Origin: Nitrospira sp.
GTDB taxonomy: Bacteria > Nitrospirota > Nitrospiria > Nitrospirales > Nitrospiraceae
DNA length: 64,000 bases
Reading direction: 5' to 3'
NCBI GenBank assembly: GCA_036984305.1
Contig: BQWY01000001.1
Location: 1,695,501-1,759,500, forward strand
Below, piece by piece: positions 53,417 through 57,084 of the stretch (position 1 is its first letter; every line of letters begins with the position of its first letter). A program made the translations under genes and the position numbers. The notes beneath the pieces were generated by a model that did no database searches, was not told the origin of the DNA, and saw nothing but the letters and a program-made list of their open reading frames with translations.

Positions 53417-54106
53417 ATGATGTCCCGGAAATTGACGACTCAGGAGCTGGCCGCCCTGATCGATCACACCGTCCTGCGAGCCGATGCCACACGGGCGGAC
53501 GTGCTGCGGGTGTGCGAGGAGGCCAAGCAGTGGGGCTTTGCCGTCATCTTCATCCCACCGTCTTACGTCGTGGAGGCGGTCGAGGCAGTGGGACGCTCGG
53601 CAATCCGGGTAGGGATTCCGATCGGCTTTCCCCTGGGCGGACACCGTACCTCGATCAAAGTGGCGGAGGCGCTGGACGGCGTGGCCTGTGGTGCGAGGGT
53701 GCTGGACATGGTCATCAACATCAGCCGCTTGAAGTCGGGCGACTATGACTGGGTTCGGCGCGACATGGCTGCGGTCTGCGAAGCCACCCCGGGCGCGGAA
53801 CACAAAGCGATTCTGGAAACGTGCCTGCTGACGAAAGAGGAGCTTCGCATTGCCTGCAGACTTGCGCTCGAGGCAGGAATGGATTACGTCAAGACTTCGA
53901 CCGGCTTTTCCTCCGGCGGTGCCCGGGTCGAAGACGTGCGCATCATGAAGGAGGCCGTGTCTGGCCAGGCCAAGGTGAAAGCGTCCGGGGGAATCCGAGA
54001 TCTGCCGAGCATGTTGGCGCTTTTGGACGCCGGGGCCGACCGCATAGGAACCAGTGCGGGAGTCGATATCCTGCGTGGAGGGATCGGAACGGGTCTGGAT
54101 GGGTGA
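53417..54106 (+). CDS. deoC: Deoxyribose-phosphate aldolase
   Basis: 229 residues, TIM barrel. IDHTVLRADATRADVLRVCE starts the family; Lys of the Schiff base in VKTSTGFSSGGA (about 160); a second Lys in AKVKASGGIRD (about 190) and Asp in LDMVINIS. It cleaves 2-deoxyribose-5-phosphate into acetaldehyde and glyceraldehyde-3-phosphate. The 28-base gap from mltG suggests continued transcription. Its usual partner enzyme DeoB is represented nearby only by the degenerate protein at 55426. Confidence 0.95.
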   Translation: MMSRKLTTQELAALIDHTVLRADATRADVLRVCEEAKQWGFAVIFIPPSYVVEAVEAVGRSAIRVGIPIGFPLGGHRTSIKVAEALDGVACGARVLDMVINISRLKSGDYDWVRRDMAAVCEATPGAEHKAILETCLLTKEELRIACRLALEAGMDYVKTSTGFSSGGARVEDVRIMKEAVSGQAKVKASGGIRDLPSMLALLDAGADRIGTSAGVDILRGGIGTGLDG

Positions 54107-54413
54107 GATCAGACGGCACGCGCGTGTAGCCCTGGAGTGTCCAGTCGTCGTCTATCAGGACGATGGTGCCTCGGTCACCGGGACGGTCTTCGACTTGTCT
54201 CTCGGTGGATGCGCCATTGAAAGCGAAGCTGCCGTGCCGGTCGAAAGCCATGTGGTGCTGGAGCTACGCCTGATTGAAGATCAACCCGCCGTGAAGGTCG
54301 AATTGGGACGGGTGAGTTGGGCGACGCGCCGTGAGTTCGGTGTCCAGTTCGTGTTGCTCGACGGAGCGTCGCGGGCTCGCTTGGAACGGTTCTTCATGGG
54401 TGGGAGCAAATAA
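54099..54413 (+). CDS. PilZ-domain protein
   Basis: 104 residues; the ATG at 54099 lies inside the end of deoC (overlap of 8 bases), so translation is coupled. The PilZ c-di-GMP-binding signature is present: RRHARVALECPVVV (RxxxR, about 5-9) and FDLSLGGCAIE (D/NxSxxG, about 31-36), then a hydrophobic beta segment and EFGVQFVLLDG. It likely binds cyclic di-GMP and controls motility or matrix functions. Stand-alone. Confidence 0.88.
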   Translation: MGEIRRHARVALECPVVVYQDDGASVTGTVFDLSLGGCAIESEAAVPVESHVVLELRLIEDQPAVKVELGRVSWATRREFGVQFVLLDGASRARLERFFMGGSK

Positions 54414-55391: not shown

Positions 55392-55419
55392 TTGCGAGAG
55401 GTAGGTATTCTGCTATAGT
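55392..55419 (+). promoter_or_regulatory. Candidate promoter leading to leaderless DeoB-like gene
   Basis: TTGCGA (55392-55397), 16-base spacer, TATAGT (55414-55419). The GTG start at 55426 is 6 bases after the -10, where the transcript would normally begin, and no ribosome site precedes it. Confidence 0.45.
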
Positions 55420-55425
55420 GCGCTC

Positions 55426-56598
55426 GTGATCCGTCGGGTTATTCTGCTAGTGCTTAACGGTCTCGGCCTCGGTCCGCTTCCCAATGCAAGTGGTGTTGGT
55501 GAGGAAGAGACCGGATCCCTCGGGCATGTGTTCGCCGCCGCCCCCGACATCGCGCTTCCCAACCTCGACGGGCTGGGACTTGGACACATCGCCCCGCACC
55601 GACAGCTTCGTCGCATGGACCAGCCCGAGGGATGCTTTGGGCGCCTGCTACGCCAATCGCCGGGATGTGATGCCATGACGGCATGGTGGGAATTGGCCGG
55701 CGTTCCCGCGTCTGGGAAATTGCCCACCTATCAACAAGAGGTGCCTGGCGACTTTCGTCAGACCGTCGAACGGATCTCACAGCGTGGGACCATGATCCCC
55801 AGATCCGACGCACCGGATGACATCCTGGCGAGCGGGGCTCCGCATTCCATGCGAGAGAAGAAGATTCTTGTCTGGGGTGGGGGCGGTGCAGCCTGTTTTC
55901 TGGGTGCTCACGACTCGGTGCTGTCAGCCAAGGAGCTGTTCCGTATCGCGAGGGAAGTACGCACCGCCACCGGCGCCGCGATGGGCGTGTGGCGGGTGGG
56001 GGCCAGGCCGTTTAAGGGAGGAGCCGGAGCCTGGCGGTGGGCGGAAGGATGGCGGGACAGTTGCGTGCCTTTGCGCAGCACGTCTTTGTTCGACCATCTA
56101 CTCGGGGCCGAGCAGTTGGTGACCTCCTTCGGAAAGTGCGGAGATTTTTTCAACGGAACCGGGTTCACGCGCTCGATTCCTGTCGAGGCTACGGCGGCCG
56201 CGTGGGCCGATCTTCTCAAGACTCTTTCGACGACGCCGCGAGGGCTCATCGTGGTGAGCCTCTTCGACGACGTAGGGCGGTTACCTCCCAAGCAATTTGC
56301 GCCAGCGTTGGCTGAGCAACTCGTGCAGTTCGATGCACAGCTCCTGCAACTGCAGCGTCTGCTGAAGCCGGAGGATTGCGTGTGTGTGATTTCTGACCAG
56401 GCTCGGGACGTGCGCCGGCCGCAGCACGAGAGCCGGGAATGTGTCCCGCTCCTCGTCTTCGGCCCCAAGTTGGCTCGTGGAGTCAATCTGGGAGACCGGA
56501 TGAGCTATGCCGACCTGGGGCAGACCATTGTCGAGGCATTCGACGGAGCGAGACTGTCCGTGGGAGAGAGTTTCCTCGCGGCCTTGCGGTCGGGGTGA
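55426..56598 (+). CDS. Phosphopentomutase-like protein with degenerate active site
   Basis: 390 residues, the same length and order as DeoB (alkaline phosphatase superfamily): N-terminal LVLNGLGLGPLPNASGVG matches the DeoB start, GCDAMTAWWELAG matches the GKDTMTGHWE catalytic helix, and ESRECVPLLVFGP matches the C-terminal segment. Key residues differ: metal Asp to Asn11, nucleophile Thr to Ala83, and metal His positions to Arg, Gln and Glu (GHRRD to VGRLP, TADHG to ISDQA, DHTREYVP to HESRECVP). A phosphopentomutase reaction is therefore not expected. It may be a pseudoenzyme with a binding or regulatory role. Co-transcribed with a RidA gene 18 bases later. Confidence 0.75.
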   Translation: MIRRVILLVLNGLGLGPLPNASGVGEEETGSLGHVFAAAPDIALPNLDGLGLGHIAPHRQLRRMDQPEGCFGRLLRQSPGCDAMTAWWELAGVPASGKLPTYQQEVPGDFRQTVERISQRGTMIPRSDAPDDILASGAPHSMREKKILVWGGGGAACFLGAHDSVLSAKELFRIAREVRTATGAAMGVWRVGARPFKGGAGAWRWAEGWRDSCVPLRSTSLFDHLLGAEQLVTSFGKCGDFFNGTGFTRSIPVEATAAAWADLLKTLSTTPRGLIVVSLFDDVGRLPPKQFAPALAEQLVQFDAQLLQLQRLLKPEDCVCVISDQARDVRRPQHESRECVPLLVFGPKLARGVNLGDRMSYADLGQTIVEAFDGARLSVGESFLAALRSG

Positions 56599-56616: not shown

Positions 56617-57084
56617 ATGGGATACGATGCGCGCGTGCAGGCTCTGGGGCTGATCTTGCCAATCGCGCCGAAGCCGGTGGCGAACTACATTCCGGCCGCG
56701 CTTGTCGGCGAGCTGCTTTTCTTGAGCGGCGTCTTGCCTTTTCGGGAAGGGCACGTGGTGTCGCCCGGCAAACTCGGTCGCGAGGTGACCATCGAGCAAG
56801 GCGAAGCAGCAGCCCGCCAGGCGGTGCTGAACGCGTTGGCGATCGTGCGGACGGAGCTCGGGACGCTCGACAAAGTTCGTCGCATCGTCAAGTTGACCGG
56901 TCACGTGGCCTCCGCGCCGGAATTCGTGCAGCAGCCTGCTGTTATCAACGGAGCGTCCGATCTGCTGGTGCAGGTGTTCGGCGACGCCGGTCGGCACACA
57001 CGCGTGGCAGTTGGGGCGGCCGAATTACCCCTGAACGCGGCCGTAGAGTTGGAATTGATTCTCCAGGTGCATGCCGAGGCGTGA
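56617..57084 (+). CDS. RidA-family protein
   Basis: 155 residues, YjgF/RidA fold: KPVANYIPAALVGELLFLSG, GQGEAAARQAVLNALAIVRT-like helix (EQGEAAARQAVLNALAIV), VRRIVKLTGHVASAPEFVQQ and HTRVAVGAAELPLNAAVELE. This is the longer RidA-like subgroup with an N-terminal extension. RidA proteins hydrolyse reactive enamine/imine intermediates of PLP enzymes. AAGGGA precedes the ATG. The Arg that binds the carboxylate in canonical RidA (near RVAVGAAELP) is present. Confidence 0.87.
   Translation: MGYDARVQALGLILPIAPKPVANYIPAALVGELLFLSGVLPFREGHVVSPGKLGREVTIEQGEAAARQAVLNALAIVRTELGTLDKVRRIVKLTGHVASAPEFVQQPAVINGASDLLVQVFGDAGRHTRVAVGAAELPLNAAVELELILQVHAEA

Follow-up and report, generated by a model that had tools for sequence, protein, structure and literature searches.

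The closest described relative of the protein reported here is phosphopentomutase (DeoB), known from the structures of the B. cereus (3M8W) and S. mutans (3M7V) enzymes and covered by the family models TIGR01696 and NF003766. In B. cereus DeoB, we take metal site 1 to be Asp286, His291, and His339, metal site 2 to be Asp13, Asp327, and His328, and the nucleophile to be Thr85. Purine nucleoside phosphorylase (PunA) makes ribose-1-phosphate, which feeds DeoB. The arrangement of metal sites in the alkaline phosphatase superfamily has been described, and the single cation of the sulfatases sits at the position that in ENPP is formed by two Asp, one His, and the nucleophile (PMC11677397). Pseudoenzymes of metabolic families, in which the fold is conserved, catalysis is lost, and the protein is retained under selection, offer a further likeness. 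Our search of the literature found no paper on a phosphopentomutase pseudoenzyme and none on a DeoB-like protein in Nitrospira.

We analyzed a 64,000-nucleotide stretch of Nitrospira sp. DNA (contig BQWY01000001.1, positions 1,695,501 to 1,759,500; hereafter the window), in which the genes and codons discussed below lie on the forward strand. The open frame at 55426-56598 starts with GTG and runs for 390 codons without an internal stop, and B. cereus DeoB matches residues 3-388 of its product (phmmer, E ~1e-41), confirming that the catalytically degenerate protein has kept the length and motif order of DeoB. As the initial annotation had noted, an apparently intact deoC, encoding deoxyribose-phosphate aldolase (53417-54106; TIGR00126, 231.7 bits, cut-off 117.3), is nearby, 1.3 kb upstream and separated by a PilZ-domain gene (54054-54413; PF07238, 57.1 bits), and a RidA-superfamily gene (56617-57084; PF14588, 94 bits) follows directly, starting 18 bp past the stop codon. 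The adjacency of the DeoB-like and RidA genes is conserved throughout Nitrospiraceae, and the order alaS-ruvX-mltG-deoC-(pilZ)-DeoB-ridA-TIG protein-ycf48-like-rsmE-dnaJ is common to this family, in which deoC is kept both with and without an intact DeoB. A search of the whole genome, six-frame translation included, yielded no further DeoB homologue. Thus, a second, intact deoB in the same genome, for which the initial annotation advised looking, was rejected, and the window gene is the sole copy.

Residues were matched in a MAFFT alignment of 133-145 homologues using B. cereus numbering, with the geometry of the sites judged by alignment. Asp13 is replaced by Asn11 (codon 55456-55458) and the nucleophile Thr85 by Ala83 (55672-55674), both as originally proposed. 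Asp286 corresponds to Val283, His291 to Pro288, and His339 to Glu335 (56428-56430), while the Asp327-His328 pair is now Asp324-Gln325 (56395-56400). Asp327 is consequently the sole survivor of the seven metal and nucleophile residues. Of the Arg, Gln, and Glu that had been assigned to metal-binding His positions, Gln325 and Glu335 stand; the Arg depends on the register, with His291 aligned to Pro288 and Arg285 nearby. Two changes had escaped the earlier reading. In the former metal-site-1 loop (SLFDDVGRLPPKQFA, 56257-56301; canonical VDFDxxYGHRND), His291 is gone and the Asp-Asp pair is shifted upstream of the old Asp286 position by one residue, a displacement also present in the nearest homologue found in a phylum-wide search (genome G250, 49% identity). 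In the cap, the pocket segment W150-H162 (WGGGGAACFLGAH, 55873-55911; canonical YTSADSVFQIAAH) has lost Ser154, Asp156, and Val158, and Arg208 has been lost as well. Equivalents of Arg193, Lys240, Asp306, Asp331, and Arg341 are still present.

Because Asp13, Asp286, His291, Asp327, His328, and His339 are kept in 52/52 canonical homologues, all of which also have Thr or Ser at position 85, the substitutions in the window protein do not represent chance variation within the family. The covalent phosphoenzyme route would be impossible in the window protein because the nucleophile is missing. Judged from the missing nucleophile and ligands, it is close to certain that phosphopentomutase function has been lost, and the protein is almost certainly non-catalytic.

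The DeoB fold is predicted to be complete. AlphaFold gave a mean pLDDT of 91 for the window protein, and the top structural match of the model was B. cereus DeoB (Z 46, rmsd 3.0 over 385; VIA-align), with sulfatases and phosphoglycerate mutases far behind (Z 21 or less). With the frame intact and the full core and cap fold predicted, the earlier statement that the gene is not otherwise decayed holds. The window protein nevertheless differs from DeoB in scoring under the curated equivalog cut-offs (159.4 of 341.2 bits for TIGR01696; 188.7 of 256 bits for NF003766). It passes the broader PF01676 model (Metalloenzyme superfamily) at 28.1 bits against a gathering threshold of 24.3; in the six-frame genome search, the same model gave 23.0 bits, just below 24.3.

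In the phylum-wide search, almost all Nitrospiraceae genomes proved to carry a single homologue, usually sharing 35-41% identity with the window protein. These matches, further genera, and 80 named loci together gave 145 usable sequences. The named loci are the best 80 from a set of at least 436 homologues, and half-site forms may therefore also occur in other phyla. Following the substituted positions across Nitrospirota, as had been suggested, we found three states, which we call canonical, half-site, and dead. The canonical state (52 sequences) comprises all other phyla and families sampled as well as early-branching Nitrospiraceae (g4, g7, g11, and others), whose orthologues retain the canonical site. 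The half-site state (92 sequences) is that of the main Nitrospira lineage, to which Candidatus Nitrospira defluvii belongs. Here the Asp286-His291 loop is shortened by six residues in every sequence and His339 is kept in 18/92; Ser85 as nucleophile and His328 are found in 92/92, Asp13 in 89/92 (Gly or Glu in the other three), and Asp327 in 87/92 (Asn or Ser in the other five). The dead state consists of the window protein and that of G250, with Asn at 13, Ala (window) or Pro (G250) at 85, and no site-1 His. Neither has the six-residue deletion, so the window protein departs from the half-site pattern in its full-length loop as well as in having Ala83 and Gln325 instead of Ser85 and His328. The window gene is not an isolated case: its state is the end of a process that runs through the family, and the whole Nitrospira lineage is without metal site 1.

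The half-site proteins are also altered in the cap. Ser154 is Asp in 91/92, Val158 is Thr in 90/92, Tyr152 is Trp in 91/92, and Arg208 is lost in 92/92, while Arg193, Lys240, Asp306, Asp331, and Arg341 are retained in nearly all. As read from the alignment, this pocket is rebuilt with new conserved residues, not merely lost. Positions 154 and 158 are those altered in the B. cereus variants S154A, S154G, and V158L in the structure match list. Trp152 and Cys159 of the half-site lineage also occur in the window and G250 proteins, both of which have Ala at 158; position 154 is Gly in the window protein (Gly152) and Asp in G250.

A pseudogene created by a frameshift or an assembly error was considered and rejected, as the window frame is unbroken and half-site relatives are encoded by the single-contig genomes G141, G246, G110, G149, and G204 and by the N. 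defluvii chromosome (L144). Genome G299 carries two half-site copies on different contigs (L192, L196); with a listed contamination of 5%, this may be a binning artefact.

In retaining just the sulfatase-type metal site, the half-site proteins resemble single-metal sulfatases. However, they have Ser instead of the formylglycine Cys and a DeoB-type cap, and their structural match to sulfatases is far weaker (Z 21-22) than that to DeoB, which reaches Z 49 for the N. defluvii protein (same predicted fold, pLDDT 92). We took a sulfatase site to consist of a Cys or Ser nucleophile, two Asp, and one Asn, Gln, or His metal ligand. The window protein is without even this site, having Ala83 for the nucleophile and Asn11 for the first Asp.

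To place these states in order, we compared a tree of the proteins with one of neighbouring genes (alaS, ruvX, mltG, deoC, ridA, rsmE, and dnaJ). In the protein tree, the window protein groups with the half-site proteins, apart from canonical DeoB (100/98 for canonical versus all degenerate sequences); the half-site clade has support of 93/83 and the window-G250 pair 100/100, with branches of 0.65-0.67 following a shared branch of 0.95. In the neighbour-gene tree, the canonical genera branch first, followed by half-site genus g6 (93); the other half-site genera then group with the window pair (100). Because of these two trees, we regard the DeoB-like gene as vertically inherited. They disagree on one point: in the protein tree, the window pair forms the sister group of the whole half-site set, whereas it branches after g6 in the neighbour-gene tree. 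The simplest order would have site 1 disappearing before the split of g6 and site 2 at a later point, within the window lineage. Since the loop deletion is missing in the window pair, there may instead have been two separate losses of site 1, or the loop may have been refilled.

The relatives of the window gene are under purifying selection. Median dN/dS is 0.10 for half-site genes in 360 close, non-independent pairs (dS <1.5) and 0.08 for canonical genes in 6 pairs. Between the window gene and G250, codon differences amount to 0.41 at first, 0.31 at second, and 0.63 at third positions, as in constrained coding DNA, and third-position GC is similar to that of neighbouring genes. Identity between the same two genomes is 49% for the DeoB-like protein, 46% for RsmE, and 78% for AlaS. 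For the window gene, whose nearest homologue is 49% identical, the codon positions, the GC, and the rsmE-like divergence argue indirectly for constraint. The gene is dispensable, because it is lost or fragmentary in five small or draft Nitrospiraceae genomes. One 2.0 Mb genome of this family (G105, locus L049) has only a 91-aa 3' DeoB-like fragment between deoC and ridA.

PunA, called by TIGR01697 above cut-off (with the G294 protein confirmed as NF006054), is present in 8/17 genomes with canonical DeoB versus 0/75 genomes of degenerate-DeoB genera, where DeoB was read in part of the 75 and the others come from genera whose DeoB sequences, as far as read, are all degenerate. Fisher's test gives p 2.6e-7, a value that ignores shared descent. 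Few independent origins underlie the correlation, and in genus g11 PunA is missing although DeoB is intact. The window genome encodes an additional PNP_UDP_1 protein (L175 1365-2357, contig 1 1368364-1369356) that is similar to methylthioadenosine phosphorylase, scores under all cut-offs, and adjoins an amidohydrolase-like gene. Second matches to PF00591 (thymidine phosphorylase) occur in Nitrospiraceae.

Given the lost residues, the lack of other decay, and the single deoB homologue, a role other than that of a phosphopentomutase is well supported for the window protein. The explanation we favour, and consider fairly probable, is that the protein descends from a phosphopentomutase and is no longer one, its sites having been lost stepwise while it was repurposed, with the window form non-catalytic and under selection. 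The phosphorylase supplying ribose-1-phosphate would probably already have been missing from the common ancestor of the Nitrospira lineage. DeoB would then have lost metal site 1 (the Asp286-His291 loop and His339) and the ribose-phosphate pocket, which would have been rebuilt with new conserved residues, while keeping the nucleophile and also metal site 2, on which single-metal sulfatases of the same superfamily rely. The window genus and a related genus would have gone further and lost metal site 2 together with the nucleophile, leaving a folded protein that could bind a ligand or a partner and still has the equivalents of Arg193, Lys240, Asp306, Asp331, and Arg341. That activity was lost, that this happened stepwise, and that the role is non-catalytic are our inferences; for the window protein, ligand or partner binding seems most likely. 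The non-catalytic role under selection that was first suggested would therefore apply to the window genus and its sister genus and not to the whole subfamily, because the Nitrospira lineage keeps the nucleophile and site 2. The half-site forms, for their part, may act as one-metal enzymes or bind a ligand.

The strongest competitor, possible although in our judgment improbable on balance, is that the half-site proteins are one-metal hydrolases or phosphotransferases that use a Ser nucleophile on a new substrate, with the window protein a later-inactivated descendant. The invariant Ser85 and His328 and the nearly invariant Asp13 and Asp327 speak for such an enzyme, as does the equivalence of the retained site to that of the sulfatase cation (PMC11677397), and the nearly invariant new pocket residues suggest a new ligand. 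However, an obligate metal site would hardly tolerate the three changes at Asp13 and five at Asp327, and nothing points to a substrate, product, or partner gene. A related reading, that Nitrospira holds a one-metal enzyme with a remodelled pocket that arose from a two-metal mutase and forms a new subfamily within the alkaline phosphatase superfamily, and that from this enzyme the window genus has derived a non-catalytic sensor or regulator, is offered tentatively and is rather doubtful. If it were true, a single syntenic gene would record the mutase, half-site enzyme, and pseudoenzyme stages.

For the window gene itself, the main alternative to a binding role is a functionless remnant whose frame has yet to break. 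The long branches of the window pair, the stepwise loss of the active site, and the loss or fragmentation in reduced genomes fit such decay, yet the intact 390-codon frame and well-predicted fold, second-position divergence half that at third positions, the same location in distantly related genera, and an identity to G250 similar to that of the housekeeping gene rsmE make it unlikely. Far less probable still is a working phosphopentomutase with metal sites rebuilt from other residues. The displaced Asp-Asp pair in the window and G250 proteins speaks for it, and Glu335 could in principle bind metal; against this, the nucleophile is gone, as are Asp13, both site-1 His, and His328, the substrate-pocket residues are replaced, and the sole lineage-conserved candidate for a replacement ligand, Asp154 in the cap, is Gly152 in the window protein. 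We rejected rebuilding on these grounds and favour the non-catalytic reading, in which the DeoB-like gene, kept intact at one conserved chromosomal position, probably now does a different job.

For most Nitrospira, Candidatus Nitrospira defluvii among them, the half-site state suggests that phosphopentomutase is the wrong label. All of the half-site relatives tested pass the NF003766 cut-off of 256 bits (278.7-356.9 bits) and would therefore be named phosphopentomutase, so that misannotation is likely widespread. The N. defluvii locus (L144 9001-10149) and other half-site loci pass this cut-off despite the deleted metal site 1. If the label is wrong, metabolic models of these nitrite-oxidising bacteria that include ribose-1-phosphate salvage would need correcting. 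One gene at one locus in one family presents an ordered series from canonical to half-site to dead, and this route from enzyme to pseudoenzyme can be tested by assay.

Upstream of the DeoB-like gene (55392-55426), we observed a promoter-like match, TTGCGA-16-TATAGT with a TG before the -10, ending 7 bases before the GTG. Because of this proximity and because no Shine-Dalgarno motif is visible upstream of the GTG in this segment, the mRNA may be leaderless. In Nitrospiraceae with an intact DeoB, a gene for a protein of ~817 aa lies between deoC and deoB (L171 1501-3951 and L087 9176-11632, both on the minus strand). It is missing from nearly all genomes with a degenerate DeoB, and a search of the window between deoC and the DeoB-like gene found no remnant of it. 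The ~817-aa protein has no Pfam or NCBIfam matches; judged by eye, one stretch of it resembles class III nucleotidyl cyclases.
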